A DNA stretch of 64,000 nucleotides, from the NCBI GenBank assembly GCA_905250025.1, contig CAJNOJ010000193.1, forward strand, positions 140,535 through 204,534. The letters are read 5' to 3'. A program made the translations under genes and the position numbers. Source of the DNA: Adineta ricciae (taxonomy: Eukaryota; Rotifera; Eurotatoria; Adinetida; Adinetidae). Below the pieces are notes generated by a model. The model saw only the letters and a list, made by a program, of their open reading frames with translations, did not search any database and was not told the DNA's origin. The number at the start of each line of letters is the position of its first letter. Positions within the stretch are counted from its first letter, which is position 1. This document shows, one piece after another, positions 22,998 to 64,000 of the stretch.

Positions 22998-23224
22998 ACA
23001 ACCAATTCAAAAGGTGATTCTTGGGTATAGCGATAATGTCCCCAAGGAGAACGACGACATATTCTTTGTATATGCGTTCAACGGAGATTGTCTACACGAT
23101 TAAGTTTCGTGTCATACGTTTCATCCTTTAACGATGAAATCTCGAGATAGATTAGAATCCCTCGTGATCTTTCTCCTATGCCTAGAATATTTTAACCGAT
23201 GAATCTGATTTATAATTATAAACT

Positions 23225-26827: not shown

Positions 26828-27328
<501 letters not shown>

Positions 27329-30601: not shown

Positions 30602-30887
30602 TATTAACAGCGTTCGCGTATTTCGCGAACGTTAAATACCAATAACGACATTAACTCTGCTTCGGAAAGAGCACCAACTTCAGAGACGACGACTGCGTCG
30701 CAAGACTTTATCCAACTGCATATGAAAGTAATCCCACGTTGCTGCCACTACTCTTCTCATACGAAAGAAATATAGTGTTCTATTTTTACGAATACAATCT
30801 CCAGTCAACATCCTGAGTACATCCATCCAAGGCCAATCACTTACATGAAAGCTATTTATTTGCAGGTATGTGAAATCTTTTCCCCGT

Positions 30888-37270: not shown

Positions 37271-38478
37271 CAGCGGTGCCCACAGGGCAGGGCAGGGCAT
37301 AGGCATCGTGCCCTGCTACTTTTAGACCTTAATCTTTTTGTTGTATGGAAAATAAAAAAGAATAACCGTTTTCTCGACGATATAGTGTACAAGAAAGCAA
37401 AAAATGTGATAGATGTCGTTCCCTGAAGCGATCTAACTATTTTCAGTAGTATGGATGATTGATGTGACCAATAAGAATATTTAAAACAACAACAAAGGTC
37501 TCTGTTCTACAACAATGAAAATGTATTTACTGTTTTGGTCTGTTAGTTTTCACTTCCAATTGATTCAGTGAAGGGATCTGGCTATGAACTCGACATCCAT
37601 CGATTTAGTGGCAGAGATTCATTCATCTTCTTCTGATGAAGAAAACGAAATATCTTTTTCATCGGTTTCAAGGGTCTCTAGTGCATGTTGTACTTCATCT
37701 TTGTATACGAATAAACAAATAGAATTTTTCCTTCGAACAGACAAACAGAAATATCGTATTTTGGCTAACGAAAACAACAAAAAGGCCACAAGCTGGTGGC
37801 GATCATTTGGTTTTCCCGCTGTTCTAAATGAAAAGAACGGATTTGAACGAATTCATGGTTACATTAGTTGCACAAAATATTATCGTACGTCAATCTATGG
37901 TTCGAAAAGTGGCACCAAACGATTTATCGATCATGCCAATCGATGCTCACCGTTATCATCCCAATCTATTCCTAATCAAAGAAATCCTGAAGAATCACAA
38001 GCCACTTTGGACAATATCGTTATCAAGAAAAAAGCTCACATTACGACGAAAGAACAAAATGAAATCAAACATTTGTATGCTAAATGGATATGTGAAGATT
38101 TACGTCCTTTCACGATCGTCGAGAATAATGGATTCCAACAACTAGCACAAACATTCATTCGATTAGGTGAGGGAAACTTTTGATATTGTGAACGATCAAT
38201 ACTGTCCTCTCTCAGGTTCTCAATATGGTTGCATCGATGTGAAAGAAGTGGTGCGAAGTAGACAAGCTGTTGCTCGAACAGTTGATGATTTAGCACAAAA
38301 ACATCGAACTATTCTGAAGAGTGAACTTCGTGAACCACTGAAAGCACAAGCGATAACGATAGCACCGGATTTTTGGACTAGCAAATACAATCAACAAGCT
38401 TTTCTCCATATGATGCATTATAGCGATTGCCGGGAAATTGTATGTAGAGTCAGTTTAAAACGAATTTCCGGAAATTGA
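37271..38478 (+). mobile_element. hAT transposon, 5' half with truncated transposase
   Basis: The sequence at 37,271 (CAGCGGTGCCCACAGGGC) is a hAT-type terminus. The transposase gene has exons 37584-38166 and 38216-38478, joined in phase by a 49-base intron. The N-terminal half has an acidic Ser-rich start and a degenerate BED-finger region (ATSWWRSFGFP..., then RFIDHANRC). It continues into the hAT core start ICEDLRPFTIVENNGFQQL, then, after the intron, IDVKEVVRSRQAVARTV and ITIAPDFWTSKYNQQAFL, which contains the first catalytic Asp. The frame then runs into unrelated sequence and stops at 38,478, so the second Asp, the dimerisation domain and the 3' terminus are missing. It cannot be autonomous. 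Confidence 0.75.
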
Positions 38479-39681
38479 ATTTCCCAATTTCCTAGCTTGG
38501 AAATTAGGTGAGGACTTCTTATACGGATGTCCGTATAGTCCGTATAGTCCGTATAGCGAAATTTCCCAATTTCCCAGCTTGGAAATTAGGTGAGGACTTC
38601 TTTTACGGATGTCCGTATAGTCCGTATAGCGAAATTTCCCAATTTCCCAGCTTGGAAATTAAGTGAGGACTTCTTATACGGATGTCCGTATAGTCCGTAT
38701 AGCGAAATTTCCCAATTTCCCAGCTTGGAAATTAAGTGAGGACTCCTTTTACGGATGTCCGTATAGTCCGTATAGTCCGTATAGCGAAATTTCCCAATTT
38801 CCCAGCTTGGAAATTAAGTGAGGACTCCTTTTACGGATGTCCGTATAGTCCGTATAGTCCGTATAGCGAAATTTCCCAATTTCCCAGCTTGGAAATTAGG
38901 TGAGGACTTCTTTTACGGATGTCCGTATAGTCCGTATAGCGAAATTTCCCAATTTCCCAGCTTGGAAATTAAGTGAGGACTTCTTATACGGATGTCCGTA
39001 TAGTCCGTATAGCGAAATTTCCCAATTTCCCAGCTTGGAAATTAAGTGAGGACTCCTTTTACGGATGTCCGTATAGTCCGTATAGTCCGTATAGCGAAAT
39101 TTCCCAATTTCCCAGCTTGGAAATTAAGTGAGGACTCCTTTTACGGATGTCCGTATAGTCCGTATAGTCCGTATAGCGAAATTTCCCAATTTCCCAGCTT
39201 GGAAATTAGGTGAGGACTTCTTTTACGGATGTCCGTATAGTCCGTATAGCGAAATTTCCCAATTTCCAAGCTTGGAAATTAAGTGAGGACTTCTTATACG
39301 GATGTCCGTATAGTCCGTATAGCGAAATTTCCCAATTTCCCAGCTTGGAAATTAAGTGAGGACTCCTTTTACGGATGTCCGTATAGTCCGTATAGTCCGT
39401 ATAGCGAAATTTCCCAATTTCCCAGCTTGGAAATTAGGTGAGGACTTCTTTTACGGATGTCCGTATAGTCCGTATAGCGAAATTTCCCAATTTCCCAGCT
39501 TGGAAATTAAGTGAGGACTTCTTATACGGATGTCCGTATAGTCCGTATAGCGAAATTTCCCAATTTCCCAGCTTGGAAATTAAGTGAGGACTCCTTTTAC
39601 GGATGTCCGTATAGTCCGTATAGCGAAATTTCCCAATTTCCCAGCTTGGAATTAGGTGAGGACTTCGGAATTTCCCAATTA
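38479..39681 (+). repeat. left minisatellite array (about 16 units of 73 or 84 bases)
   Basis: Units read GAAATTTCCCAATTTCCCAG, then CTTGGAAATTAAGTGAGGAC, then a TTC/TCC variant, TTATAC or TTTTAC, then GGATGTCCGTATAGTCCGTA. The longer units carry one extra 11-base TAGTCCGTATA. Each unit contains two palindromes, AATTTCC-N6-GGAAATT and TACGGA-TG-TCCGTA. Variants recur in a four-unit order (AGG/TTCTTTT, AAG/TTCTTAT, AAG/TCCTTTT long, AAG/TCCTTTT long), a higher-order repeat of roughly 314 bases that is shortened towards the right end. ORFs through the array are chance. Confidence 0.95.
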
Positions 39682-40410
39682 CTAATCGTGAAAATTGAAC
39701 ACGAAAAAAAATGTAGGGTTAAGAGAAATATATTTTTTGTTTCGGCGTCGCAGTGTAAGAGCGGTTTTTGTCTGGCGAGAAATCGAGCTATTTACCTATG
39801 TCTGAATGAGTGATTAGTGAGCAACTGCATCGTGTATGTCTATTGAAGAGTGAGTTCGTTTGGCTCCTCGTCTGTTGTTTTTAGCGTCAAATAGAAGGAT
39901 GAATCATACGTAATAAAATGTTTTATGTAGTAAACTAGACGTACGATGATTTTCGTTTCTAACGCACTGCTCAAAGCAGTGGCTTTATGTGAAACTAAGC
40001 GATTAGCAGAAAAACAAAGAAGATACTGTTGTTCTTTCACATCAGTGACGGCGATCTCGAGAAGACTAGGCTTGATGCTCTATTATTTTTGTTGGAGAAA
40101 CTACCATTGAGCAAATGTGCACATTCAATACTGGAATTGGGTGTCAAGTGGTGATCATTGGGTGTTTATTGAGATATCACGTTCAAATAGAAAACCGGCT
40201 TGTCTTATTCTCTAAACTTTGTTGCTTTGGTGTTCTGCTTTTCCATTAGTCCGTCAGATACATCCGATACACAAAGACAGGTTGATCAGTATACTGACAC
40301 ATATCACTTCAGAATGAAAGTTTGCATTGTTAGTATGTTATATTATTCTTTTTTTTCTTTTTCAGAGAGTCTCAATATCGAAAGAAATAAAACTCTCCAG
40401 ATTGAAAGCA

Positions 40411-41981
40411 TCAAGAACAAACAATTCCTTGAAAAAAATGTTGTTTTTCCACAGAAAACACGTTTCCAATAGCATTTCGAAGAACATCTTCGGAAACAGA
40501 GCATTGACTTGGATGCAAGATCTTTGCAAAATCTAACGAAATAAAAATGTGCAATCTTATTCAGGATACATATTAGTAATCTTACTAATAATAGCATTCT
40601 TTTCTCTATCGGGCATTCGCAAAACAGTCGTTTGGCTTCTGATATCAGCATTCAGATAGAGATGTTTAGCGAGAGCTCTAGAAGTTTTTGTTACGGAATT
40701 GTGTTTTTTAAATTGTTTTACTTCAGTTTTCGTTAGATCAAATTCTTTACGGAATTTCTCTGCTTTTATTTTCCTTTTATGCTGCTCTTTCGTTGTCTTT
40801 GTTGCAATCGGAGAAACGCAATCGAGATTCACAGTCATATCACGAAAGTATTCGGGTGCTGAACCATCGGCCTATAAGAATTACTATTTTTCCTATGACA
40901 TTTGAACGAGTTCACTCACTTCGGCATACAATTCAATTGATAAAACTTCAATTGCTTTTTTAAATCATGAATCTTTCGAAAAAAGTGATTGTATGATAAA
41001 GTTATTGAATTTGAATATTTTTCTACCGAAGACTCTGTGAAGGAAAGCAAATTAATTTGAGATCAGAGAAAAACTACGTAAATAAAGGATTCCGTGAATA
41101 TTTGTGGAATTTGAATTTTCACAATTCTCGTTAAAAATGACCATTTCTATCTATCGATTCATTGTATATTACCATCTCTCATCCGTTTTCGACTTATTAT
41201 TATCGATTTTGGATATTGTATACATATCCAACAAAGAAATATTTTTTTCTTTTTTCAAAACAAACATGAAATTCGACTTTGATGCCTTCATCAACTAACC
41301 ATAAAACTTTGAAGATTATCAGACTGTTCTCGTCGAATTTCTAGATGAACTAATTGTGTTCAATCATGCATACAGTCGTACTATAAAGCTCGCCCGAAAA
41401 TAATGACGTCCATGTGAAATTCTTCATCAGGCGATGACGAAGTTATTGGTGATGATGTCCATTTCGATTTGTCCCATCTGCTGACATATTTAGTTATTGT
41501 TGATTGCGTGTGACCTGGTTCGGCATCATCTAAAATATCAAATATCAGTATATCTATCAAAGGTTCAAGACATCTATCGCATTAGTACTTACGTTCATTT
41601 TGACACGAAGGTTGATCGCATGTTTCATCGACATACAACATGTTACTGCTATCATCTGAGCTGAGAGGAGTTTCTTTCTCGTGTGTTTGACTCGATTTTG
41701 ATGATTGGTCATCATCATTAACTAGCGAATCGTTTTTTTCACCTAAAACAAGAAATAACTTCTTTCAAACCCTATCAAAGTATTTGCTTGATCAATATTT
41801 TATATACTACTGACTAATAAAAATTTGTTCAAGAATTAAATTTAAAAACTGACCAACCTAGTGCATCAGCAAAGTGTTTCTGGATTAAAATTATTCGATG
41901 ATGAACCTTGTGAGATATATCAATAGCTATTTGGCTATCTGCCATTTCCATTTTATCGACTTTTGTTCTTCTTGTCATCAT
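40411..41981 (-). CDS. BEN-like DNA-binding protein A (probably frameshifted)
   Basis: Paralogue of the gene at 56,863-58,420, with the same exon plan. Exon 1 is 41981-41858 (same 124-base length, with SHKVHHRIILIQKH), exon 2 41742-41593 (150 bases, Asp/Ser-rich), exon 3 begins at 41529, exon 4 is 41034-40920 (115 bases, coiled coil ending KKQLKFYQLNCMP), exon 5 40871-40586, and exon 6 40532-40411 (FAKILHPSQ...LRNAIGNVF). Exons 5-6 carry the BEN-like helical core (EFDLTKTEVKQF, then TKTSRALAKHLY). Exon 5 is out of phase with exon 4 by one base, and I could not place the end of exon 3, so the gene may be decaying. Expected role: nuclear, DNA-binding or chromatin-associated. Confidence 0.6.
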
Positions 41982-44865
41982 TTTCAACGATAAACTCTAT
42001 GTGAAACATAAAGATAAAAAAAGTTGCCATTTTAATCCAAACTGGTCTCTTAAATCGAAATCTTATAAATATTTGCTCAACAAACATGATCTGAACGATT
42101 TTCTATGTTAAAAGGAAATGATTCGTATTGGCGCTAATAATGGAGGCTATACATATTAACAGATGTCGTAAGAATTTAATTGGATCATTTTCAATCTAGC
42201 TATTTGTATGTTGAATTATATCAGAAATCAAGTTAAACTCGTCAAATATGACTGCAAAATAACTCCGGCTTTTGATATAAAGAGCCATTCTTGTTTTTTA
42301 TAGTGAAAAAAATCACATCGTCACGTAAAATGCGCTTCACCATAGATTATTTCTGCTTGAGCAATAATACAACGTGAATACATGTAGGGGTTATGTTCAA
42401 TAAATTCAACCGTAACATTCACAAACGGATAAAACTCTGTTCTTATTTTATCTCATTTCCTCAATTGAATCGTCCCAGAATAATCTACCATCTATCAACA
42501 ACAGTTCAAAATCAACACTTACAATGCATTATAATGCATTAAACATTCTTTTCAATATGCAGTGTACACCATCACAAGACTGAATATTACACCGCAAGTC
42601 TTCATTGCTGCGCGAAAGCATCACCGCTCTATGACACACTTTTCTTTTACTCAGCAATCGATAAACGAATAATTCACCTGTATCGAAATATTAAAGAGCA
42701 AAAAGATTGTAATTTATCTATCATTTGGAAATATATTCGCGTACAGCTTCATCCATCATAATGTGTGTCATCGTATAGCAACTCATTTCACTGCGAGATG
42801 ATGTACATAAAAGATAAAATTTTAGTTGTAAATTACAATCGGGAACAATTTCATATACAACCAGAACAGAGATTTGAGAGTCTATATGATAAGTGAAATC
42901 TATCACGTTCCATCAATACTCAAAGCGATTGGATACTGAAGATAACACGACGTTAACAAGAAGGAACATGGTTGTGCTTGAAATATTCGAAGTTGCTTTT
43001 CCTTCTTACCAAAAAAGCTTTCTCGACCATCACTAATAATATGAAGCAAAATGATTCCTTTGTTTATTCCTTGTAAATGGTCAGACTGATCATGAATCAT
43101 CATTTTCAGACATGTCACTTTCACTGAAGACTACAAGATGATTCACTCGTATTTGACTTCATGTAGTTTATTCACATAGAACTAACGGCAATTCTTTATC
43201 TTTACTCGCCTAAGACTCACAGGAAATTTTATTCTATTTGTGTTTAATCTTATAATTATTACATTGTTTCATTTTGTACTTTCTTACTGTTTTCGCTTTG
43301 TAAAGGATAAAATCAGCGTTATCACGTAGACTATCGCTATGAACATGACATTTTCTTTGCGCAGATCTGCTCCTAAAGCATCGGATGTGTGGTATATGTT
43401 TTCGTCCAATCGTTTCATTGATCCATTTTTCACAAAGAATTCGCGTCGTTAATGTTTAAGACAATTCTATATCATAGTTGTCTACAGAACTCTTATGGAT
43501 AGCAATTCTCGAATATTTGAGATTCCCTTTATCTTTGGTCGGTGTGGCACCAATAATTTCTAAGACAAATAGAATTCCAGTTTTTCAATCATATTCTTTT
43601 CCGTTAAGCAAAGAATCGATCTCTTTACATTTCATGCATTTTGTGTAAAAACATATTCTAAGTCACAATCTGTTGATATTTGTCAGAAACGATACCAGTG
43701 TAGATTTGTGAAGCGAATTTTAAGGAGCACCTGATTGTAAAACACATCTTTCTTTTCTTCGACACACTAAAGTAGAAAAATATCGTGCATTAATCGTGCA
43801 GGATTGGATTAACAACATGTTAATCCATAAAAATATGTAGCCTAATCTTTGTTCAATGTTGTTCTGAAATGACAAATACTTTCTGCTACATCTATACTAA
43901 TTTAAACACCGGATTTTGCTTCTGTTGAGCTAAAGCTTATCCAAAAGTTGTTTGTTTCAACGTAATAGTTCGTCTCTTGGTGACCGCTATAATATAATCC
44001 AATTATAATGCATGATAATGTGTGATAATGCATGATAATGTGTGATAATGCATGATAATGTGTGATAATGATTCGAATATAACCAATACTGGTCGTGTAG
44101 AATGTGCTGAAATTCAATAAGAATAATCATCTATACAAGATATGTCGGTTAGTGATTCACAAATAGATCGGAAAGACGCATGCAAATACTGTGAAGGAAC
44201 ATCAATCATGAAGTTATGACCAGGCACCCGAAATCTGTATACTAGTATATTTTGATGTAATAATGCAACATCCGATCTCTTATAAACTTTTCGGTGCCCT
44301 GGCGTCAGAGTCAGTTTCATGAACAACAGTACCAGAAAAAGCGACTTTCGAGAGCATGTTATTTTGCTTTAGTTTATTTTTGCAGCATTTCAGTATTCCA
44401 CAACGAAGTTATTACGCATTTTCCGGAGTTCTTATGAAGTAAAAGAGGTAGCCTATTACACGGAAGAAATGAATACAAAAAATTGCACCGGTAGATGAAA
44501 AAAGAAAAAAAATTAAAATTAAAAGTAAAAGTAACAATGAGCAAAAGCTAACAGTGTCGTTTAACAAATGTTAGTAATAATAATGAATAATAGTTAAAAC
44601 GCATCGAACTGAGAAAACAAAAGTAGAAGAGTTTTTACAGAATGAAATGATTTCACAGGTCACACGGAATCAAGAAAGCAATATAAAATCTTTGTGATAT
44701 GAGAAAAGACGAAAACTGCATATGTACATGGAATCAATGAATCATTGATTAATTCTCGGTTATTCTATGGCGAATAACGCTGTTTTGGTTTCCGATCACG
44801 TTTGCCTCTTATAGGCGGAGCTATAAGGAAGAAAAATTCAATGACCGAGGAACTCAACAATATTA
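41982..44865. other. gene-poor interval inside the inverted-repeat region
   Basis: Two minus-strand ORFs, 43124-42903 and 42906-42721, abut in different frames and could be one hypothetical gene with a one-base shift (the second ends DEAVREYISK). Another minus-strand ORF lies at 44326-44114. None is recognised. TAATGCATTA-type motifs occur near 42,527-42,545 and in a short tandem array at 44,005-44,070. Confidence 0.35.
44005..44070. repeat. 20-base tandem repeat with ATAATGCATG core
   Basis: About three copies of a 20-base unit, ATAATGCATGATAATGTGTG. The core resembles the TAATGCATTA motifs scattered through 42.5-56 kb. Confidence 0.8.
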
Positions 44866-47800
44866 TTACATACTGTTATTCTCTTGCATGACTGCCGATG
44901 GATCAAGTGTTACACGCTCGTTAAGAAAATCATTCTTCCCGATAAAATCGACCAACACACTTGAAAACAACCATGTTTTGTGTTTGACATCGGCAGCAGT
45001 AAGCATACGAGGAAAAACATCGGTCTTGTTCTTCTTGAATGATTCTTCATAATCATTATAATGCATCTTATATTTTGCCAACGTGCGAGCAAAATCAAGT
45101 TGATCTTGTGGATTCTTTCTTGGGAGTGTCTTCAAAAAGCCCGGCAAAAGCTCGACAGTGCCATCTGCCTTCTTGCTGGCAAACCAATTGGCTTTGACTA
45201 ATAATCCATCTGTAACTAAGTTGGTAAGTATATGCTCACGTGACTTGTTAATGTTTCTTATGTGTTTCAGTTTGCTGCAAACGTCCGATCGTGACATAAC
45301 AATGGTATCACTTAGAATTATCTTCTGATAGGCTTCTTGAAGATCTTCATCGTCAACTTGATTATCGCCTAGAAAAACAATTAACAAGTCTTTAAATAGA
45401 AGTATCGATGATTTGGAGCTGACATCATTCAAAATAGGACTATATTTACTGAGGTGTCTACTTCCTTGTTTCAAAATGTCTCAAAAATAAGAGAACTATG
45501 ACTTACTATCGGTAGTGTTTGATTCTGTCGGAGCAGATGCCGATGAAAGTGTACCACTTAAATTCATATCAATGAACGGTGCCGTGACTTCTTCACTTTC
45601 ATTATTTCTCGATCGCTTCGGGGAAGCATCATTGTTTTCTTCATCCAATATTCTCTTTAACAAGTGTTTCTTATTCTGAAGCAAAGTCGAGAGTAATTCC
45701 AATGTTTGTTGAGAACTCATATTGTTCAACAATATGGTCGTATCGTTTGCTGTCGGTTCAGCAGGTAAAAGAGTATCATTGTTGTTGATGACACTGCCAG
45801 GTAATAGTTCGATATTGGATAATACCGGTCGATCTAAACGTGATGACAAAAAAGATAGATTTACTTCGACTCAAAAGTGTCATCTTACATTGGTTCTGCT
45901 CATCAGTACTTGCTTTTGATTTATTTTGATAAGACACTCGGTCGTCATCAATCTTGTTCGTTGTCATTGGTATTGGATCTGGAAATCATACAGTATTATG
46001 CGGTTCGAATAAAATCTTGGTTTATAATGAAAACTTACTTGGCTGTTCGACATCTAATGGCTCGTAATCGAGCATGTTTGTTAATCGGCTCATAATATCA
46101 TCAACTGATGGTAAAAATTCGTACTGAAGGCGAGCATCGCATCCTGTTGTTCGCTCGACAAAGCTGTTGTATTGTGGTGCAGTAGTAATATTCGTGTTCA
46201 AAATTTCCGATAAAACAGAAGAGTTTTCAGAACGAGCTGATGTCGTGATTGGCGATGAATTATTAATTCGTCGATCTGATTCGAAAATTAAAGTTGCCAA
46301 TACGTCATCACCATTATTATTAGTTGGTGTTTGATCAGCATCGTACGGTTGACTATTTTCAACATTGAAATTATCTATACGTCACAAAGGATTCGCTTAA
46401 ATAAGAACTGCATTCATTTTCAAAAAGTTCAAGTTTACCATGTTCAACAGTTTGAGACATCGATGGTACGTAGTATTGTCTTCGACCCAATGACATCCTG
46501 TATTGCACCACTTGTTTTGACAGTCGTTCTTCCATTTCTTTTTGTATACGAGCATCGTTGAATAAATGGCAATATTCAACATAATCATCATTGAACAGAA
46601 TTGAATTCACAGTAAATGTAGTTAATTCCATATTCATTGGTAACGGCGACGAAAGATAAACATGTTCATAAGTATCGATATCGACACCAATCGATTGAAG
46701 GTAAGTCAGCATGTCGACATTGCCACGAATAGTTGCTGGTGATGCTTTTAAATACGTTTCTTTTCGTGCACCAACAATATGTCGAGTATTCTGGAAGCCT
46801 TTTCGCAGAATATCATGATGAATCAAGTCATTAACAGCTCGAATAAGTTTTGCCGTTTTGTTTTTCGATTTTCGATAGTTACTAAATGTTTTGGTGAATG
46901 GAAGACCAGTTATTTCATTACTGAACCAGGCTTTGACAAGAATGGGCGATGTCATTGCCAATAATATGGATTGATGTTCATAAAAAGCACTAAAATAAAA
47001 TACAAGTTTCGATTAGGTATTCTTATCAAAAAGAACTTGATTAAACCAATGCTGTTAGGAAATGACTTTCTATAAGTGGACTATGAATGAATAAAATATC
47101 TAATCGCGATTTAGTCAAGTATGCGGCGTCGTTAAAAGGTCAATTTGGACAAGAACCAACTTAGATGGAGACGATGAGCAGCAAAGAAATCAATAACCCT
47201 ACCACTCTTCTCAAGCAATATTCTAACTCATTACCGAAACGTACCACTCACGACACTAGTAAGAAAATATGTGAATTCTAAATGGATATCCTGAAAGAAG
47301 TACTGAATATAACTTACTCTGTAGATGATTCATTAGTAATCGAAATATTGTTGTCACTTTTCGTTGTAACATTGTTATTCATTGATGTTCCGTCGAAAAG
47401 AGCTGTACTTGTCGATGAAGTATATTGGTAAAGCAAATTCGAAGCATGTACGGCTGGTTTTTCAATGACAAATAATGGACGCTGATCACTTCCAAATTTC
47501 GGAGCCATTGCAACGTCTCGTTCGATCAGTACTTTGACTGTATCATGAAATTTCATTAGCCAGCTAGTTTGTTCGTCGTCGATATACTCTTTGAGATAAA
47601 GGCCATCACCGAATCGAACTATGTTAATACATTCAAAACATAATTGAATGGTATACGACATCGCTTGACACAATCCGGCTAAACGGGCTAATTTATTGCT
47701 GCTCTTTCGTTGAAATGCCCGTTGTAAAGGTGTATAAATCGGATTGCCCTTCGTATCACATTGCAACGATTTTTGATGTTCAGCTTCAATAATACGTCGA

Positions 47801-49364
47801 ATGGCATTGTACGGAGATATTACTGATCCATCTTGTTCCACATCAGCTTCTTGGATGTCAACAGTCACACTCGGCTTTATATTCGATATGGGTTCAGTTG
47901 TTGGAATTGGATTCACCACATTTTTTCTTGCTTCTTCTATATCCGGTGGAATAATGACTAGAAAGGAAAGGAAATAGAGATGTGTATGTGGAGTGGCAAA
48001 TAACGGAAAATAATGTGAAAATGCAGTTCTTTCAGATATTAACGGAACAGTGATGTTATGCGACGGATTCAATGACAACACAAAGAATTTACAGACTGAT
48101 GATTCGTCTCTATCACCGAATCTCATACTACAGATCATCAGAGCTACATAAACAACGAGTAAAATTACTTCTTTACGTCTGTTAACATCTTTAGGCTGAA
48201 CTTCTATCAACTGTTCGCTGAATTAATTATCGAATGACACATGAATTACAAGGAAACTTACTTGGTTGTGGTGAACTAATTGGAGATTGATGTTGAGCAA
48301 ATACGAATATCGGCTTGTGTTCTGCCAAAAGGCGAAGTACGATTAAAATGTGTACGATATTCGGTTGTACAGACAGAATTTCAGTTGGTAGGTCGTTTGA
48401 AGCTTTGTACACAGATGTTGTGATGAATAAATACCGACTGATGGTACCGTCGGACTGAACATTACTGTTGTACTGTCGACATACAGATGATAACATGCTT
48501 CCTGTCGATGCTCCAAAGATGTTGATGGAGCCCCGTTTCACAAAGTATGACGAAGATCCAGTTGTACGAGAAACATTCTTCACGATATCGTAACCTTGAC
48601 ATAAAAGTTTAGAGCCAAATGTTTTCATATCATTGTCCGTCGAGCCAGCTTGATACACTCCAAATCGAGTATTAATAACATCAAGTTCGTCGCTTGAAAT
48701 AAATACATTCTCCTAAAACGAAGAGAATGTGAAAATTTTATATGCGCACTCTCTACAAAGTTAGTCTCGGCCGTTTCTATGGCTCTCATTTCGAACTTAA
48801 CACTCATAAGATCTTACGCTTATGACTTACTCGTTTGGAGAGTCCTTGAAATAACGATAGTTCTGTATCGTTGTTTGCTATTAAATCAACCGTACTTAGT
48901 ACTTCTTTGCCGTTGATAAGTTCGGCAATAGGTTTCGAGAAAAATGAAGGAAATATTTTCTCCAATGCATTGATGCTATTGTTGAACACTCGAAATAATC
49001 CAGATTTATTTGTGCCTAAAGAAGTCAATACAAAATAGATAATCCATCAAAGAAATAAGAAAAATTTACCTGGTTCACCAATCAAATGAATAAATAAATT
49101 CATCGACGAAATACTACCGGTGCCATCAGGATTGAAAACTTCCACTCCATCAAGCATCATAGCGGCATGTCCGAGCATCCCAAATACGAATGGAGCGATA
49201 TCAACTCCTAATGTTTGATGTTGTTCGAAGAAACGAAGTAATGCTACTTGATTGAATGAACCGAAAATCGATGTAATTTCAAATGGAATTGGTGAAGAAT
49301 TGGTCAGTTTGAAAATGTTTGAACTAATTTTCGCTGCATATGGTTCCAGTTTATTAGGTGCCAT
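44866..49364 (-). CDS. DUF3987-like P-loop protein (primase/helicase-associated type)
   Basis: Nine exons join in phase: 49364-49070, 49015-48831, 48712-48262, 47957-47318, 46989-46409, 46374-46039, 45978-45889, 45833-45507 and 45464-44866, giving 1,167 residues. The intron at 46,408-46,375 is only 34 bases and least certain. The domain starts SPIPFEITSIF. A Walker A, GEPGTNKSG, lies at about residues 95-103 and is split by the first intron. The Walker B-like strand is VFISSDELD. The family strand pattern SINIFGASTGSML...DGTISRYLFIT matches DUF3987 proteins, which accompany primases and helicases in mobile elements. A Ser/Asn-rich linker precedes a C-terminal helical, possibly winged-helix region. 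It is transcribed divergently from the transposase gene. Expected role: ATPase acting in element replication or mobilisation (inference). Confidence 0.65.
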
Positions 49365-51446: not shown

Positions 51447-54369
51447 ATGGCTTTTGTGTCGATCGAATTCTTGGATAATACTGTAATGAATGTAATTGGT
51501 TTTTGAACAATATTCGTTTGTATTCAGTACTAACAGAAGCAGCTACTCTACTTATCTTTGTGGAAATCAGAAAAAATTCGATCGGTGTGATCTGCAGAAT
51601 AACGAAGCATCTGATACCTGTATATTAGTGTCCTGTAATAGTTCATTCTATCGATGAAAGCGCAAATAAAAAGCTTAAATGTAAAAGCATCGTAAAAGCC
51701 CATGCATGATAGATAATCAACCCTTTCGATCTGACAGACAAACAAGGGTGGCAACATTGTTTTGAAATGTTCACAGTATTAACCAAAATAGATAATCTCT
51801 TCACGTAATCAATTTGAAATATTTATTACAAGTTGTTTATTGTTTTAGATGCCAAACGACGAAGATATTCTTGAAAAACTTCGTTCTTCAATTGGTTTAA
51901 TAGCTCTAGTCTACATCTGTCGACTGTATACCAAACTGTCGATTTTTCCATCGATAATTTTACCATCTACTGCTCGGACGCATCTGATAAAACAAGCACT
52001 AAATGATCGTTACCATACTAGTCATACAACCGAAGATATTATGCTGGTGACCAACATGATCGAACTAAACAAAGATCTTATTAATCGAGTACTGCTATTG
52101 TCGGATTTTGAACAAAGTACGATCAGGTTAGATGTAAATCATATTACAATGGATGTTTTAAATGATTTAATCTTATCTCCATTCACCAACATATGTTTGA
52201 ATTGCAAAAAATCGCTTACATCATATCGATCCAAGTTCATTCATATTATCGATTGTTTTAAAATCATTCGAGCCGTAGCTGTAACTGCTGAGTGTAAAAC
52301 ATGCACGCTAATTTACAACCATTCGTCTTGGTACTCACTGAAGAATCGATGGCGAAAGATCAACACTTCATCGTTGAATAGTGTACACAAAGTGTTCTAT
52401 CTGTGTGATTCGCTCGCATTTACGTATTCGGTTTTCTTCGATTATACATGTCAACTTCTACACAATCAATGTCCATTTCAATCTTTTTCTCGAATTCTTA
52501 TCGATAGATACAATTATGAAGACCAAAACAGCAATATTATTCTTCAGCCTATTCCATTAGCGAAATTATTCCAATGCCATTGGTTATTATATCAAATTGT
52601 ACGTTTTGAGTTCATGTTAGGACGAACTCAAATAGTTAATTTACCGGTCTCACTTAATCGAAATGAACTTAATTGTCATTTTGAATGTTATTCTGGTTGG
52701 TGGTATCATCTGTTCACTACATTTTGGTCTAGACATAAGTCAATTCCAAATGTGAAATGTTCTTCATCAGATTGTAGTCGATGCATTATTGTGGATGGCC
52801 ATCAGAAATGTCGACGATTAGTATGTAGTTACAAAAACGTTGTGGATATTTCCATTGAAGAAATGACTGCAATTGAAATTGGTTGCCCATATACACCTTG
52901 CCGAAGAGTGCATTCGTCGAATTCTGGTACGCATAGAATTGTTCGTTGCTGTCATTTATATGGTTTTATTTTAGTTGATGCGATTTATTGTCGGTACCAT
53001 CAACCCTCGGTTCTTCTATCGCCGTCTCTTAGTTTACAAAAAGCTGGTGGCATGGCTGCTGAATTCTCGGTAATATGGTTTTCTTAACTAAGTCATTTTC
53101 AGAGCCTGACTGTCGGGCCTATTGAGTATATGAATAATTGGAGAGATATCCTATTATGGAGTGGTTATGAAGCCAGTACTATTTATTGTTTGCTAAGCAA
53201 GTTTGCAAAGCAAACTCTAACGATATGTAAATGGTTTGTGCGCATGAGCATAGGCACATGTATTCCTAGTCAATGCAAGGTTGACAACTGTCATTCGTTG
53301 AAAAAAGCTGTATGCTAGAAATCATAGTAAACAAATAAAATATTGTACTTACGAATGAAGAGAACGAATCACACAGATAACTATGTAAAAGTAATTCATC
53401 CAATAATTTGATCTACTCGAAATTTTCACACACGCGTTCTCTATCCCGCATAGGATAATATTTTATCCTTGTTTCGTTGATCGAATGGGATAAGTGTACT
53501 CTTTTTTTGTGTTTTCAGAAACGGGATAGAGATTTTCTATCGGAACATAAAGTCCAATGCCAAAATTATCGAAATGATAGTGAAGAAATAATAAAGAACA
53601 AAACTTATGGCATATTAGCCTCGTATCATCCATGTGGAGTTGCAGTTGGATTTACAGAAGCGATCAAAGCTGAGGGTATGTCAGTTCAAAAGGTGTTTCA
53701 AAACGACAGTACTAACGATTTTGAGTTAGACTTTTTGCAAGATTTTGTCAAAGAAAATTCTGATTTATGATATTTTTCTGGATAGGGATGCGATCGGTGA
53801 CTCGTCACCTTTTACTCATGATCATTGGTGGTTGTCTTATGCCAGATGCACTGATGTATGATTGCGCCTGCGCATTGAAGCTGCATTGGAATAAGTGGTT
53901 AGGTACTGATATGTTGAAGACATCGACAATAACACAACAGCTTCCAGTTCATCTTGCTCTCGATAACTTTCATCAAAAGACACATTCTCGGCCGATGTGC
54001 CAAACCATCATGAAATCAGACCACCCATCGCATGAGGGACGATTTGTTGGTTTAAACAGTCAAGCAGCTGAACAAGCATTCCAATACATAGCACGTGCCA
54101 AATTTGCACTACGAAATTTTTCATATCCACATTCAACAGTGATGCTTTTGATCATGCTGCATATGTTAAACTGTAAAGTAACTGGCATCAATTCAGAAAC
54201 AACTGGTTTGGGACCTTTACACTTTGGTGACATAATCAAAGGCTTTTTCGCCACACCATGCGTGTATGAACGATTCGGGACGTTGAATGGTGAAGAAATG
54301 AATAAAGACGAGGACGACGACGATCAGCCAGATCTGGATCACACTGTTACGTCGGAAGATATAACATAG
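51447..54369 (+). CDS. KDZ-superfamily transposase with CxC5/CxC6-like clusters
   Basis: Exons 51849-53069, 53103-53309, 53519-53675 and 53786-54369 join in phase (722 residues). A 36-base upstream exon (51447-51482, MAFVSIEFLDNT) may also join. Residues 110-165 carry a CxxC zinc-ribbon pair (NICLNCKKS, then AECKTCTLIYNHSSW), as in the CxC5 cluster. At about 300-375 a second cluster has DCSRCIIVDGHQKCRRLVC, then GCPYTPC, as in CxC6. The C-terminal RNase H-like part has YDCACALKLHWN, then LALDNFHQKTHSRPMC, then the Glu of LNSQAAEQAFQYI, the KDZ D-D-E pattern, ending ALRNFSYPHSTVMLLIMLH. The CxC clusters are named for their association with KDZ (Kyakuja-Dileera-Zisupton) transposases. The frame is intact, so it may be active. 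Confidence 0.75.
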
Positions 54370-54378
54370 TTGTTTACA

Positions 54379-54894: not shown

Positions 54895-56862
54895 GGTATT
54901 AAATCTATAACACATTTAAAAATATGTCTATTATGGTGTCGATTGATAATCAACATACTTTTCTATGTCCAAATATTCCCAATTCGTATAGCATTAGTAC
55001 TGATCCTTTTCGTAATGGTACAGCGTATATATCTGTAATGTCAAATGTGTACATAATCATTTGGTATGTTGTTGTAAATTCTTCGAAAAGTTTCAACAAA
55101 GTAGTTGGATTTGAACTCAAGTATGAAATGTGTCAATCGAAGATTGGAGTGCATGCTTTTGTGAAAAAAGCTAGAAATTTTGCAAGGCAAGACTTATCAT
55201 ACTCACTATCAGCCTAATTGACTGATTGATTTTATGATTCTTTTGATTGCATGAAGTGGAGGGTAGTTACGTACATATCTGTTGATGGGTGTCACTCTCT
55301 ATCTGATAGATTTTCAAATAATGTCTTGCTTGAAGCTAACACTTCCGTAAATACTTCTATGTTCTTTCTATTATTTCTCTGAGCGATGACGATTTCAATT
55401 CTATGTATGAGTTTGTCTGATTTATATATAGATATATGCCTAATTGCTTCCTGTGGATCTTTCCTCCATTCACGTAGAATACTTCTGCTGTAGCGGTCCG
55501 TCGACAAACATTTTTTGTTTCTTTTTTTTCACAAAAAATTTTTTATATTCAGTTTCAATGTGAGAAATTTTCCCGACTCTTTTTCTACTATTTCTCTTCT
55601 TTTTTTCTTAAACTTTTACAAAACTTATTTAGTAGTCTCTTCTTTCGCTTTATAGTATTCGTTACTTGTCCGCATGCTTCAGAAATCGTGTCTTTTATTC
55701 GTTTAAGCTCATTCGGAAGATGATCATCGGTTCGTCATAATCTAATTGAGAGAAAGAAATCTTATGATTGATAACAAACCTAATAAATAACAACGAGTAT
55801 TCAACAAGAAATGATATTCTGTAGTGTAAAAGTTAGAGATAACTTTTTCTTCGGAGAAAGAATAGAAGAAAACATCTTTTATCTGTTCAATCTTTAGTTT
55901 AGTATTCTGTTTAGTATTCATCAGTTGAAGCAGAATCATACGATGATGAAGATTTGGAGACTTCTGCATTGATAAATGGCCAAATTATTTTCAGGTCTGA
56001 CTTATTAGTTCAATTCCATTCTTCATTTATGTTATATCGGAATAAAATGCATTTTAATGCGTTAAAGTAGGTTTAAGTGCATTGAACACTGAGACAGATA
56101 GATGATTAATTCCTAGTTGATTTTTTTTCTTCTTTATACCTGGATACTTCGATACAAATCGATCACTCCTTCATACATTCAGCATTGATCAGGAAAAATT
56201 GCTTATTGGAGTTACCGTTCTGTTGTGTAACAGACAAACGTCATGTTTAATTATGAACCTGTTGGCTTGACCTTTGATAATTGATAACACTCTAATGTTG
56301 TTCTATCTTTTCTTTCGACTCTAGTTGATGAATCAACAAATATTTAAACAAGAGCATAAAATACTAATGAAAAATAAAAACAAGCATTGATTATGGTCTA
56401 TTGAATTACTGATGTGTTCAAATTAATCGGAAAATTTCTCACTTATTCATTTTTTAATACATATTTTTGATCTATACATAACGTGATATACTTTAGGATT
56501 ATGAGTGTTGTGGTACTTTCTTTATAACAAGAGACAACACATGACTTGAAATAGATATTGAAATCATATTGCAATTATATCTGTCTGCTTTAGTTCGATT
56601 AATATCAAATATTAACATCGATCAATTGTGTAAGCAATCGTTACACAATACGTATGCTTACGACATCTGTTTACATTATTGCCTCCTTCTCTTTGCGCCA
56701 ATGCGAAATTTATCCTTTTGAACATGTAATGCAATATATTGTATTATTCGTTCAAATTCCGTTTCTTTGGGAATTTATTTCGACAACTCGTGTTTGTGAA
56801 ATGGATTTTATTTTAACGACCGATTTATATAACAGCATGTTTTAGATACACATTTGTTTATC
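54895..56862. other. gene-poor interval
   Basis: A minus-strand coiled-coil-like relic reads HLPNELKRIKDTISEACGQV near 55,700-55,650, followed by stops. ORFs at 55,292-55,507 and 55,742-55,969 (minus) are unrecognised. A TAATGCATTA-type motif (AAAATGCATTTTAATGCG) lies near 56,045-56,062, upstream of the next gene. Confidence 0.35.
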
Positions 56863-58420
56863 ATGTTAACGAGGAACAGAAAATCTGACGACTTGACAGA
56901 GTCAAATGGTCATAAACTCATCAATAAATCGCACAAGGTCCATCATCGAATAATTCTAGTTCGAAAACATTGTTTGGAAGTACAAGGTTTGTCAAAATTT
57001 TTCTTTCTGATATTCAAATAATTTATGAGTTGAGAGTATATTAAATACTGATAATATTTCTAAATTAAGAATCTGAAAAGAAGATTTGTATCTTTTTAAG
57101 GTGAAAATGTTGCATCATCAAGTGATGATGATATTCAAACACGAAAATCTTCTCGAATGGCTGCAAAAGAGATCTCTTCTGATTCAAATGAGAATAATGG
57201 CACATTATATATTGATGAAAATTCGAATCGATCGTCCTGTTCATTTCAAGGTAAGCACTGACGAAAGATACCTGGAGCTTTAATGGATTTTTTACTTCAA
57301 GCATTAGATAATTTACCAGGTGTAACAAATTCATCGATAACGATCACTCGGAAATGCGATAAAGCGACTTCCATGTCAGCATCAGATAGTTCGTCTTCAT
57401 CGGATGATGAAAAATTAACTTCACCAGCAGGTATTGATAAGATTTTTTTCGTTGAATACAAAGATTTTGACTTAAATAAGAGAATAAGTTCGCGTTCATT
57501 TCGTTCGTTTTCAAATAAAGATCCAGTAAAATTACATGCATGAATAAATCAATGATTCATTGAACGGTTAGAATTGAAAAGATTTGGTTTTTAATAACGA
57601 ATAATTGATAACATTTGAAGTGACAATACCGTTGAAAAACAATGATATTGTTTAATAGCGATGTTATGAATTGTAAAAATGGTTGAAACATTTTTTACAA
57701 AATATCCTTGTACCTCTAAATATATTAATAACTATATCAATCGAATTGTAAAAGGTCAGATTCGAAGAATATTTGTCACGATTTGAAATAATTCACGACA
57801 CTCCGATTGAACGTATATTGAGTTGAATTGTTTCATTTCTAGAATCTTCCGAAGAAGATGTTGAAATTTCAACGCACCAATCATACCATCAACTTGTTCA
57901 AGAAAATCTCCGTTTAAAAAAGAAACTGAAATTTTACCAACTGAATTATATTCCAAGGTAAATTGACTAATTGAATAACTTGTGAAAGCTGTTTTTAATA
58001 GGCCAACTACTTCATCAATAAAGCATGTTCGTGGAGTTCGTGGTATCTTCGATACTGATCCATCGACTATGAAAAGGAAAGAGAAGAAATTTCGTGAAAA
58101 ATTTAATATCACAAAAAGTGATATCAATGCATGGAAACGAAGAGGTTCTATAACAAAGACTTGTCGCGATCTAGTCAAACATCTTTATCCTTCGCGTGAT
58201 GTTCAACGCTCAATGGCAATTTCAAAAATGTCGAAGAAACAGAAAAATGAAATAGTCGGTAAGAGAAATAATTGTTATCTAAAGTAAAACAAGCATCCTG
58301 TTTTTCTTAGAATTTGCACGGGTCATTCATCTCGATCAACGAGATATTTCTGATGGGTTGCTTCGAAATGCTATGGGAAATGTATTTTCTTCCGAAAAAC
58401 ATAAAAAAGACAAAGCTTGA
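56863..58420 (+). CDS. BEN-like DNA-binding protein B
   Basis: Six exons join in phase: 56863-56986, 57101-57250, 57320-57430, 57843-57957, 58002-58258 and 58311-58420, giving 288 residues. The N-terminus is basic (SHKVHHRIILVRKH). Two Ser/Asp-rich acidic exons follow, then a coiled coil (QENLRLKKKLKFYQL) and a C-terminal helical domain: KFREKFNITKSDINAW, then TKTCRDLVKHLYPSRDV, a basic KMSKKQKNEIV and DGLLRNAMGNVFSS. Order and spacing fit a BEN domain, which binds DNA or bridges chromatin proteins; the assignment is by pattern only. The gene is intact, unlike its partner at 40,411-41,981 on the other strand. It may regulate or bind the element's repeats. Confidence 0.6.
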
Positions 58421-58869
58421 AAACAAAGCCACAATTTCCGCAGAAAGAGTTTTATTTTCTAGGTTAGATTTTCCTTGAAAATATCCGTATTTTTCTATTA
58501 CAAGTGTATCAAATAAAACACATCTATATCATCACATTTGCATAATTCACACCCAGCAACTCTCAATAATGAGATTACCTATCTAATCAGTCTAACTACA
58601 TATTTCATTCATACTTCAGTTTCAATAAATACCTTCAATATTAATCGGCACAGTATCGAATCCATCGCAACTAAAATAAATACTTCAATCTGACATCTTA
58701 TTCACCACGACGAAATCAATGACAAAATATTCAATGGTTAGGTCAATACTCGAAAGATCATTATCAGTTCTACCAAAAACTTATGTAACAACAACGGCGA
58801 TATGACAGAGGAAATCATATCATTTTGCAATAATTCGAATAGAATGCCAATGTTGTTTTAAACGAATGA

Positions 58870-61440
58870 GATTGAGAGGTGCATATGAGAATATTACAAA
58901 TCGTCAAAATTTTCTTGAAATTAAACGTAAGGAATTAGAAGATGATTGTCAGGAAAAACTACGAACATCATTCGGCAAACGATTATGAGATGAAGTAGTG
59001 AGTTTTGTGAGAAATATTATTGAGAAAACAATTGAAAATAAGAATGAGAATGATGAAAAGCTACTACAAAATATTCAACTCGATGAATTTAGAGAATAAG
59101 CAACAATAGATATTAGATAAAAACATCAATGACAGAGCAACAATACATAAGGAATTTACAACAGAAATACAAAAGAATCTTGAATTACAATATGATAAAT
59201 TAGAGGTAAGATTTGTAGTTAATATGCCACCATCATGAAATACAATATACAGATTAGAGTTTTATGCAAAAGGAGCTAAATCATACACAAGAATCAGCTG
59301 AAATTAATTCAAGAACGATGAAAAAATACATCGACTAAGACGAGATCCGATTTAACCGTATAAATGAGAGAAGCAAAAAGTAGTTGAGATAAAAGAAACT
59401 ACCAAAAAATACAATGAGTTATTAGATAAATTATCGAATCATCGTCGGGAATCATATAATAAAAGTCGATTATGTAGTAAAAACGAGACATAGTCGATTT
59501 GCGAAAAAGAAATTGAATTTTTTGGTGAAAAGGGTGTGTACAACGAGTGAAAATCAGTACATGCCCTTACACATAATCATGCAGCTAGTATGAGAACAAA
59601 ACTACATCCACATCATAGTAAGATTAGGTTTCCATCACAAGCAAATAATAGAGCATTGATAACGAACGAGATAGAGAACAGAATACCTAATTTAGGACCA
59701 AAATTTGTACCAGTGCCTGCACAACAAGTATTAGCATGATTACCAGTTGAGATTGATTAAATGAAGGATAGAGTAGGAGTAGCATGGAGAAAAGCTACGC
59801 AAACAATAGGACGAGTACTACTTTTAGCGAATAGATTTTGTCTATGAGTAGAAGAAGAAACAAGAAAAATATATCGACAGAAAATTTAAAAGATTCAGCA
59901 TTAGGTTTTACTATGAAATATTTTCGGAGAACACAAACACGGAAGAAAATCATCTTTCGACAAACAGGTAACTCAAAAGTATTTCATACAGATACGTGTG
60001 GCAATCCTAAACAGAAATCAACTGGATATATGAGTAAGACAAATGCATACATTGAGTCAGAAATATCACCATTAAAACAAATGATTTAAAAAAACGGATA
60101 TATTCTTATGATATTCAGTCTCGAAAAAACAAATACTCCAAGCGTTAATGGAAAAACTGAGACCATCAATGACAGAATCTGAATTACCTTATTTATATTT
60201 TAATCCAAAAGATCATAAGATAGAAGAACCAATTTGACCAACACTAAGCGAAATCAAATCATCATGAGCAAAATAGCTAGTTTTCTTGATAAAAAGATAA
60301 CGCCACTCTTCGATAGACGTACATCATATGCAAGAGCAAAATTCTCTCATATTAATTACTAAAACAATGGGAAAACTATGAAACATCTAATGAAACAAAA
60401 ATCTACACATTGGATATAATTGATCTTTACACAATGATACTGCAGAGGGAAGCAAAATAAATTGTATGGGAATTCTTAGGTGAATATCGATGTAGAAAAT
60501 AGTTAATCTATCAATCAATATAATAAAGGAATCATTGTCACATACACAGGAGAATTTATATTTTGTTCTTCAATTACCAGCAGAAGCAGCTAAATATTAT
60601 CGACAAGCTAGAGAAGAAGCTATGGAATCAGCCTTTACCTTAAGTGTTAGCCGATATATATCTATGTGTGTGTGTGTGTGTATTAGAAAATGGGAGAATA
60701 AACTAGTTCAAGAACAATAGAATCAACAAGAACTATATTTTCGATCTAGAGATTATGTTTTCTTAGCAATGAAGTTATTAACAGAAAGAATAGAAGACGT
60801 ATTAGAGAAATTGAATAGATCAAAACAGATCAGAATCTAAAAATACAAAAAGAAGGAGAAAAATCGGAAGGCTATCTCCACGTTACAACAAGCGTAGAAA
60901 ATTCGGATTTTAAAACAAGAGGATATCGGAAAATAATGGCACAACGGTGTTTTACCATATTATTGAACGTGTTTTCAACATATTGAGAGAAATATTTCAT
61001 ATAGAGCACCATTAGAAACAGCAAGAGTCTGTTCACATGCGAATGATCTTAGAGAAGAATTAGAAAAAATTAGAGTAACTTTACTATTGAACAAATATCC
61101 ATCCAAATCCATAGATGAACATATACAGAGATTTTTTAATGACCTAACTGAGCCAAGATCATCAGATAGATTGTTAAGTACAGAACATCTAACATTTAGA
61201 AACAAAGTACTAGGTGAGCAATGGGATAAGAAAGAAAAAAAGAAACATAGACTTCAGAAATGATATACTTTGACATTTTTCTTATACACTATTAATGGCG
61301 AGATTCATTAGCAATTTTTATAAAATATGGAAAGAAATTTTCTGAAGGAATGCTATTAGATGACACACATGTGACATATACGAATCAAACAACAGATAAT
61401 TTAGAGTAAATGTTGGTAAAAAAGAAATCGAATAGACAAA
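58870..61440 (+). mobile_element. Athena/Penelope-like retroelement fossil
   Basis: A degraded reverse transcriptase reads 5' to 3' on the plus strand through many stops. Pieces in order: a Lys/Glu-rich N-terminal part near 58,890-59,100, RKKIIFRQTGNSKVFHTD near 59,940 with YMSKTNAY near 60,030, the RT fingers ELPYLYFNPKDHKIEEPI near 60,180-60,230, FLDKKITPLFDRRTSYARAK near 60,280-60,340, and the thumb region YRAPLETARVCSHANDL through LLLNKYPSKSIDEHIQRFF near 60,995-61,140. The PKDHK box and the CSH...NKYPSKSI pattern are Penelope-like. No GIY-YIG nuclease is seen, as expected for Athena elements of bdelloid telomeres. Confidence 0.7.
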
Positions 61441-63544
61441 TATTGAAAATAGAGTAAGAACGAAGAAGATAACTATCAAAAACGTTTTAGTAAGAAACTA
61501 ACAAAAAAACAAACTTTTCGTTTTTCTTCTTAAAAACAGAACTTGTTTTCATTTCCTTAGTCTTTCATTTATGTGTAACAATCAATCATTTCTCTCAAAA
61601 TTCTCAACCTGTATAAAAATCTTTACCTTTTTTAAGAGATGTAAAAATAATAAACAATTCCCTTTATCCTCAAATCTCCCTTAAATATGTCGCAAAAATC
61701 AGTTCGCCTCTCATATTGCGAACATATGTAAAAATTTTCTTCTAAAATGTAAAAATTAAAATCCAATTCTTCTCTTATTCCTAATCTCAACAAATGTGTT
61801 GACTCCAAATATTTGTAAAAATTTTTCCATAATCATCTAAAAACATCTGATATCAAACTACTATAAGCTTAAACAGTACGTAATACAATAAACCTCATTA
61901 AAATACATCAAAATGATATTAGAATTCATCAAGACACCTCTAACAAAAATGAGCAAAAATACTTTAAATTGTATTAAAAAATTCATTGCGACGCATTAAA
62001 ATACAATTAAAAACAGCAAATACATTAAATTCCATCAAAACTGAAATACGATAAGGATACAATGAAATTGAGAAAGAGACGATATAATAACAAAGATCGA
62101 TTTAAAAAGACAGCTTTGAAAGGGCAAACATGAATATGATTCCACTAATTACTGATTGTTTCCCTGAAAAGTTATTGTTATTTCACTCATTTTTTTGTGT
62201 TATTTATTTAATCATTTGTTTTTTCTTTTCTTTTCTCCAAAATGAAAATACAAAATTCAAAACTCTTGGCTTTTTCTTACGCATTATATTATATGAAAAA
62301 TTCTAGTTGACTTGATTTTTCCAAAAGATTTCAATTCATACAATTGAATAATAATGAATGATCTTGTTGTTCAGACTGTTTGGGAATCACAATATCTAAC
62401 TTAACATTGTGATCAATTGTAGATGTGGTTGATAAACAAACAATAATATTAACGAAGCATAATACTCATTTTCATTTGATAGTTGTATACTGTTTTCAAT
62501 CCGTAGCTAATAACAAGAAATTTCATGTGTTCGAAACAAAATTTGTAATCAATGTGGTATTAGTGATTGGATTACATCCAGCATTACATTGAAACACTAA
62601 CACTACTCATAACAAAAAATTCATCAAAAATTTTAACTATTTCAATTAAAGATCTTCTTTCGTGAATTCTTCGTTTTTGGTACATATTGACAATAAAGCC
62701 GGAAGCATAACATCCAGCCGACAAAAAATCTTCATATACCCTTTTCAAAGGGAATTTCCAAATAACGTCAAACGTTATCATCAATTTAAAATGAAATCGT
62801 ACCGTCTAATGAAACTACTTCTAACGGTTTCCGTAAATGAGAAATCCTGCTTGATGCAAATGGACTAAAAATCTGGAGTTTCGAATTGTGTAGACATATT
62901 GAGGAAAAATACGATTGATAGTACAAGTACTTACAGATCAGCGAACCAGAATAACGAGTTATCTTCGTTCGGAAAGGTTTTAAATCTTGCCACAGCGTTC
63001 AGTTTGATTAATTATTTACTCTATACATGGGATATCGAAAAGTTGTTGTTCAGTTCTCCCATTAATAATCATAATTTCAATATCTACAAAAGAATGAAAC
63101 TTTGCATGTTCGAAATTTGTTTTATCACTTAGAAAACATTTAATTGTTTTCAGAAACTATCCCATTCTATTACTGCAAACTCCAATCAAGTTAAAATAGA
63201 AACTTAAGATATTGAGCAACTTCCTTTTATTTATGATTACTGTATCAGATGCATATTCAAATGAACAATCTATTAACCAACCTAGTCGATATAACGCAAT
63301 ACATGTTTTTCTGTATAGGAGCAACGCAATCAACTTTATCCAATATCGCTGCAATATATAAAAACACCAACTTCATCACAATTTCCCATTTCACAGCTCA
63401 CTCTTAGGGCTTACATTCCATAACAGCAACAAACAACAATATTTATTTGTAAACCTTCATTGAATATACATTTATTCCAAGCCGAAGATTTCAACAACGC
63501 GATATGACACGCGCTTGTGAACTAAGAGCCTCCTTCGGAAACTG
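61441..63544. other. AT-rich gene-free interval
   Basis: Very AT-rich, with degenerate ACATTAAA/AAATACATT-type repeats near 61,860-62,050. Short ORFs only (for example 62,584-62,784 minus, basic). Nothing recognised. Confidence 0.4.
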
Positions 63545-63818
63545 TATTGCGTTGCTCACCTAATCTCCAAGCTGGGAAATTGGGGAATTTCGCTATACGG
63601 ACATCCGTATAAGAAGTCCTCACCTAATTTCCAAGCTGGGAAATCGGGAAAATTCGCTATACGGACTATACGGACATCCGTATAAGAAGTCCTCACCTAA
63701 TTTCCAAGCTGGGAAATTGGGAAATTTCGCTATACGGACTATACGGACTATACGGACATCCGTATAAGAAGTCCTCACCTAATTTCCAAGCTAGGAAATT
63801 GGGAAATTCAATTTCCGG
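63545..63818 (-). repeat. right minisatellite array (about 4 units, inverted)
   Basis: Same unit as the left array but in reverse orientation (CCTAATTTCCAAGCTGGGAAATTGGGAAATTTCGCTATACGG and onward, then the CCGTATA block). About four units against 16 at the left. It joins the same hAT-derived sequence at its outer end. Confidence 0.95.
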
Positions 63819-64000
63819 AAATTCGTTTTAAACTGACTCTACATACAATTTCCCGGCAATCGCTATAATGCATCATATGGAGAAAAGCTTGTTGATTGTA
63901 TTTGCTAGTCCAAAAATCCGGTGCTATCGTTATCGCTTGTGCTTTCAGTGGTTCACGAAGTTCACTCTTCAGAATAGTTCGATGTTTTTGTGCTAAATCA
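63819..64000 (-). mobile_element. inverted copy of the hAT transposase fragment (runs off the window)
   Basis: The reverse complement matches 38,286-38,478 with no difference I can see. It covers the transposase segment from the middle of exon 2 (DLAQKHRTILKSELREP, ITIAPDFWTSKYNQQAFL) to the array junction. It is truncated at the same base as the left copy and probably continues beyond 64,000. Confidence 0.9.

Follow-up and report, generated by a model that had tools for sequence, protein, structure and literature searches.

The last 25 kb or so of the stretch analysed here very probably consist of a KDZ-family DNA transposon, about 25.3 kb long, which runs from position 38407 to approximately 63.73-63.85 kb, may be autonomous, and is inserted in a hAT transposon already resident there. 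The stretch (hereafter, the window) is the 64,000-base end of contig C193, from 140535 to 204534 of its 204534 bases, and window position 64000 is where the contig terminates. The genome that we searched with its parts amounts to 130 Mb in 1033 contigs. The first-pass annotation had proposed a large transposable unit bounded by inverted arms made of a hAT transposase and a minisatellite. The unit is retained, given its KDZ transposase, its replication-type ATPase, and the partial copies on contigs C834 and C741, whereas the hAT-plus-minisatellite ends are not. That the stretch moves as one unit is what we infer from these elements taken together.

The left boundary is defined by the hAT. The 5' part of this transposon occupies 37271-38406 on the forward strand and encodes a Hermes DNA-binding domain (DBD_Tnp_Hermes, 25.7 bits for a Pfam cut-off of 20.5). 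Its start is that of the first-pass annotation; the match to another hAT copy, that of contig C192, opens at 37283 and is 97% identical over 1124 nt. The C192 copy continues uninterrupted past the point where the window changes to minisatellite (38407). When the arm was searched against its own genome, 25 of the 55 matches listed began within 2 bases of 38407, counts that are lower bounds, and the flanks outside this type of terminus differed between the loci read. Because the hAT of C192 is unbroken there, and because a common sharp start is found next to differing flanks, we conclude that an element entered the hAT here and has its terminus at 38407. This left terminus (LE, 38407-38440, forward strand) is followed by a subterminal minisatellite that repeat analysis resolves into about 15 copies of a 73-bp unit (38478-39666, forward strand). 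The composite of hAT and minisatellite does occur on both sides of the element, inverted and switching at the same base, and is real in the assembly: the arms (38286-38693 and 63593-64000) match over 408 nt with 4 mismatches, all within 63624-63683. Its reading as a mobile end was dropped, since the hAT runs through the junction on C192 and the element starts at 38407. The hAT 5' half was rightly recognised, as its Hermes domain confirms, but it is the site of insertion and not part of the arm; the element has termini of its own, LE and RE.

There are two types of termini in the genome, LE (CATATGATGCRTTATAGCGATTGCC) and RE (GATTTGATGCGTTATAGCGTTTTCC), whose patterns are alike at 29 of 33 positions and constitute terminal inverted repeats. 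The left and right termini of the element accordingly differ in sequence (CATATGATGC for LE, GATTTGATGC for RE). Only the LE type is present within the window, and RE is seen on the relative C402. The motif common to both, searched with at most 2 mismatches, occurs 67 + 71 = 138 times genome-wide, and its reversed control does not occur (0 + 0). We read target duplications on eight small copies having both ends, rather than on the window copy. An 8-bp duplication is present in five of the eight, two of which share one target. For six copies compared in an 8-bp frame, the left and right flanks are identical at 33 of 48 positions, with five of the six pairs matching at 6-7 of 8; L014 is the sole pair of the six without a duplication. 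In a 7-bp frame they agree at 30 of 42, a score reached by none of 20,000 shuffles. The choice between 8 and 7 bp is close, and 8 is slightly better, the eighth base matching in three of five pairs. Two of the 30 pairings between flanks that are not partners scored 6 and 5 of 7, both involving L015 and L028, which are related copies on C139 with one common target. The copies on C319 and C333 lack a target duplication (1 and 3 of 8), and have one left flank and different right flanks. These two copies (L074 and L075) are 325-base palindromes, of LE type at both ends on C319 and ending in the RE type on C333. An RE-type terminus also occurs at C834:5864-5889, outside the copy on that contig and 4 kb from its LE. 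With 138 terminus motifs and with small copies that have both ends, the ends of the element are open to direct testing.

The transposase gene (51849-54369, forward strand) has four predicted exons in our splice model, encodes 712 aa with no inner stop, and is oriented divergently to the DUF3987 gene described below. Scanned directly against Pfam, the 712-aa model gave nothing at E≤1, and the assignment was made through relatives. The predicted protein matches a frame on C121 (tblastn, E 1e-21) that passes PF18758 at 33.7 bits, and a protein on C570 (BLASTP, 1e-13) that passes it at 37.4 bits; its acidic and DGHQK positions align with those of the PF18758-positive relatives. We class the putative transposase as homologous to the KDZ domain (PF18758) by way of these relatives, and the open KDZ transposase of the first-pass annotation thus stands as a four-exon model. 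Exon 1 shows a dN/dS of 0.154 relative to C741, where the copy has one stop. The CxC5 domain is above the Pfam cut-off in the proteins of C570 and C955 and has no match in that of the window. In viral contigs, none of 49 pattern matches to KDZ relatives was confirmed.

The second large gene (44765-49364, reverse strand) encodes a DUF3987 ATPase. Its splice model has ten predicted exons with GT-AG borders and 1141 aa without an inner stop, and the protein matches PF13148 at 33 bits for a cut-off of 27, which bears out the replication-type ATPase proposed earlier as an open, if predicted, gene. The alignment columns GxP..NKS, DE, and R..LF, which we take to be the ATPase motifs, are conserved in the window protein. 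Its relatives in the genome include copies on C834 (86%) and C741 (82%), and others on C923, C833, C978, and C239. The dN/dS values, computed with a Nei-Gojobori script, are 0.178 relative to C834 (1141 codons, no gap), 0.181 relative to C923 (1139 codons, gaps in-frame only), and 0.205 relative to C741 (1045 codons; a further 95 are gapped, and 1, 21, and 3 bases are inserted). With values of about 0.2 between copies, the ATPase looks to be under selection for function. In a run made with the sister proteins, those of C570 and C955 match PHROG 2373, annotated as DNA helicase, and a PDB sequence search with the ATPase alignment gave no match. The window ATPase is likely helicase-like and related to the phage enzymes.

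Profile searches of the genome identified PF18758 at six loci and PF13148 at eight, with three contigs in common: C570, C488, and C955. The DUF3987-KDZ pairs on these contigs are always divergent. The other three KDZ and five DUF3987 loci have no partner in these searches, which proceeded exon by exon and failed to detect the spliced genes of the window as well. One could view the DUF3987 gene as a captured passenger without a role in transposition, and the matches of the sister proteins to phage helicase and primase families would fit such an origin. We find this unlikely, because the gene is kept next to KDZ in the window's family and at the three more distant loci, and because dN/dS between copies is 0.06-0.21 (the lowest value being at saturated dS). 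This association suggests a mode of transposition or copying beyond plain cut and paste. At L051:1462-2046 and 2749-3537 (C538), a further DUF3987 gene adjoins a long divergent frame that is primase-like by eye and without Pfam support.

The right side of the element was delimited by comparison with C402. The right subterminal region (62420-63559, forward strand) is 93% identical to C402:52383-53523, and beyond this match C402 continues with one inverted minisatellite unit leading to an RE terminus, the native right end. At the same place, the window has inverted minisatellite units (63560-63683, reverse strand), then an inverted copy of the left arm with a terminus of LE type and not RE (63684-63879, reverse strand), and finally 121 bases of inverted left hAT flank (63880-64000, reverse strand), where the contig ends. 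The outer 317 nt (63684-64000), including the 121 nt of hAT, have no mismatch to the left arm. Contig C741 also ends, and C597 begins, inside this minisatellite. Because C402 carries RE there and these two contigs break in the same repeat, we read the inverted right arm as most likely a misassembly, a misjoin through the shared minisatellite probably located in or near 63560-63683, and not as part of the element. Comparison with C402 would put the true right end near 63.73-63.85 kb. The hAT arm that had been taken for the right end of the element is instead an inverted copy of its left end. As to the sequence past 64,000, in which the inverted hAT terminus had been expected, the contig ends at that position, and a genome search with the hAT 3' half gave three matches: one is C192 itself, and the others are pieces of 49 bases, on C193, from the hAT part already described. 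None is a contig with the missing right junction.

It is quite improbable, in our view, that the right arm is real, i.e., that a recent inverted duplication or fold-back joined the left end and its hAT flank to the right side and made a palindromic giant unit. The sequence is present in the assembly, and the copy of 325 bases on C319 demonstrates that LE-type termini at both ends exist. However, the contig stops 121 bases beyond the junction, and the 317 bases are free of mismatches up to and including the hAT flank, whereas the other hAT copy is only 97% identical; the RE of C402 and the breaks of C741 and C597 weigh in the same direction.

Two further genes, one on each side of the KDZ-DUF3987 pair, had been described as BEN-like paralogues. 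We call them coiled-coil genes, from a reading of the sequence by eye. The right one (56863-58420, forward strand) has six predicted exons in our splice model, with GT-AG introns and no inner stop, and encodes 288 aa. The left copy (40441-41981, reverse strand) shares with it pieces that are 60-67% identical, in inverted orientation. We found by eye no continuous frame in the left copy; its 3' half has no match in C834, and the C741 copy has stops. It is thus probably decayed. The BEN domain was rejected: a Pfam scan of the right protein, made with a model one residue longer than the 288 aa, returned no BEN match at E≤5, the sole match being PF23125 below its cut-off (16.3 of 27.8 bits). What remains of the earlier description is a paralogous, inverted pair, of which the left member looks decayed. 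Likewise, the small convergent gene reported at 60967-61263 does contain a frame of 98 aa, but it is only a frame, without a Pfam match at E≤5. More generally, a Pfam scan of ten frames of the window gave matches for three of them (7tm_1, Arf, and FG-GAP), which points to an animal-like host; an Rfam search gave none, and the telomere repeat TGTGGG, examined as a clue to the species, is not in excess (12 forward and 26 reverse occurrences vs 14 and 30 in the control). The window also contains a direct segmental duplication (9203-13303 and 22998-27112, in blocks 79-97% identical at a spacing of about 13.8 kb), and two tandem duplications (30160-30603 and 34262-34704, with a period of 222 bp and 99-100% matches).

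The earlier proposal implied other copies with the same gene order and sharp ends, and we found these in part. Contig C834 is colinear with the window over 9.6 kb, at 81% identity, in a segment that starts at LE (9889) and takes in part of the coiled-coil gene and the whole ATPase; no sequence of the window matches the left flank of this copy. Contig C741 has the minisatellite, the coiled-coil gene, the ATPase, and KDZ exon 1 in the window's order, followed by rearranged pieces, and ends inside the minisatellite short of any LE. No single contig includes LE, all genes, and RE, and both colinear copies are partial. The region from 55.7 to 62.0 kb has elsewhere in the genome one match of 312 bases, which lies among rearranged sequence on C741, plus two short matches; we infer that it belongs to the unit. 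The subterminal repeat of C834 (L022, 1501-1700) keeps the layout of that of the window (9-bp repeats, AATTTCC pairs) with letters that are partly different, and looks as if it were co-evolving with a binding protein. The identity of C741 (L061) to the window is mosaic, 96% for KDZ exon 1 and its surroundings and 82% for the ATPase, which suggests recombination between copies of the element. This difference, the near absence of 55.7-62.0 kb elsewhere, and the lack of a DUF3987 match at half of the KDZ profile loci would also fit a chance nesting of unrelated elements, one with the minisatellite, one bearing the helicase, and one being a KDZ transposon, but we consider this highly improbable, given that order and orientation are the same on C834 and C741 and that the divergent DUF3987-KDZ pair recurs at three more distant loci.

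The sister loci carry additional genes. On C488 and C955, downstream of KDZ, on the same strand, and beside KDZ and DUF3987, there are stop-to-stop frames of 789 and 781 aa (L057:5666-8035 and L058:946-3291, respectively). Both contain an REKR site, one strong C-terminal membrane segment, and 12-13 glycosylation sequons, and the C955 frame only has a signal-like N-terminal stretch. These features make the protein putatively envelope-like. Its gene is matched on five contigs (C955, C488, C856, C359, and C272), of which C955 and C488 alone are among the KDZ loci; the others have no KDZ or DUF3987 profile match. The protein has no relative in Pfam, a PDB search returned two chance-level matches (E 0.87), and none of 28 pattern matches in viral contigs was confirmed. 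On C570, a GDSL/SGNH esterase-like frame (L056:8128-8880; 26.3 bits for a cut-off of 32.9) lies downstream of the KDZ-DUF3987 pair. Bdelloid LTR elements are described, in the part of the source available to us, as having an envelope or GDSL as third gene (PMC5408684). A search of 10 kb of each of C570, C488, and C955 revealed neither the LE nor the RE pattern. We tentatively raise the idea, itself rather doubtful, that elements with KDZ and the DUF3987 helicase form, in this animal, a class of their own among DNA transposons, large and able to copy themselves, to which the C488 and C955 lineages added a membrane-anchored, envelope-like protein with a furin site, under purifying selection (dN/dS 0.149 between the two frames, at a dS of 1.6 that is near saturation). 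If this were true, the C488 and C955 elements would be virus-like, able to pass between cells or species, and a KDZ counterpart of Mavericks. The presence of the gene at two sister loci bears on the possible horizontal spread of such elements.

These results suggest how the element may work. The KDZ transposase, with its conserved acidic positions, would recognise LE and RE, which are short, inverted, and slightly asymmetric termini, and would cut and paste the element with the formation of an 8-bp target duplication. The inverted minisatellite units inside the ends are probably repeated binding sites, perhaps for the coiled-coil protein that the element itself encodes. The DUF3987 ATPase, whose gene is transcribed divergently, would probably act as a helicase or remodeller that helps to unwind or copy so long an element. 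At the true right end of the window copy, one would then expect the inverted minisatellite, GCATCAAATC, CTTTTCTC, and the hAT 3' half.

The sources available to us in part describe KDZ transposons as elements that carry a transposase and, in some cases, a TET/JBP gene (PMC12730594, PMC5718144, PMC6431247, PMC7943196, PMC9297572, PMC5408684). KDZ and DUF3987 were never together in one paper of the literature searched, outside of which lie most subscription journals, and the titles and abstracts listed for Zisupton or KDZ, including those on rotifers or bdelloids, mention no such helicase-bearing giant element. The Zisupton and Dileera elements, as far as the accessible text of their descriptions goes, resemble ours in having a multi-exon KDZ transposase, short inverted termini, and 8-bp target duplications (PMC12730594, PMC9297572). 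In contrast to them, our element is about 25 kb long, has subterminal inverted minisatellites and a divergent DUF3987 ATPase, and shows no TET/JBP gene in the subset of its frames scanned with Pfam. Kyakuja belongs to the same transposase superfamily, and the accessible part of the source reports for it 7-bp duplications and CA..TG ends without inverted repeats (PMC12730594); it was dropped, since our element has inverted repeats and 8 bp fits slightly better than 7. The window ATPase shares with DUF3987 proteins the Pfam match and the ATPase columns, and its sister proteins on C570 and C955 match the PHROG 2373 phage helicases; it differs from both groups in being the product of a spliced gene in a eukaryotic DNA transposon and in its long extra C-terminal part. 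Like Polinton/Maverick and Teratorn, which the available text presents as large and as combining a transposase or integrase with a replication-type gene (PMC6431247), the element is large and has predicted genes of both kinds, and two of its sister KDZ loci also have an envelope-like gene. Unlike them, its transposase is KDZ, and the subset of frames scanned with Pfam includes no capsid, polymerase, or integrase. KDZ transposons themselves being known, what the literature searched does not describe is the combination seen here, most likely a giant KDZ transposon with a helicase-like partner gene.
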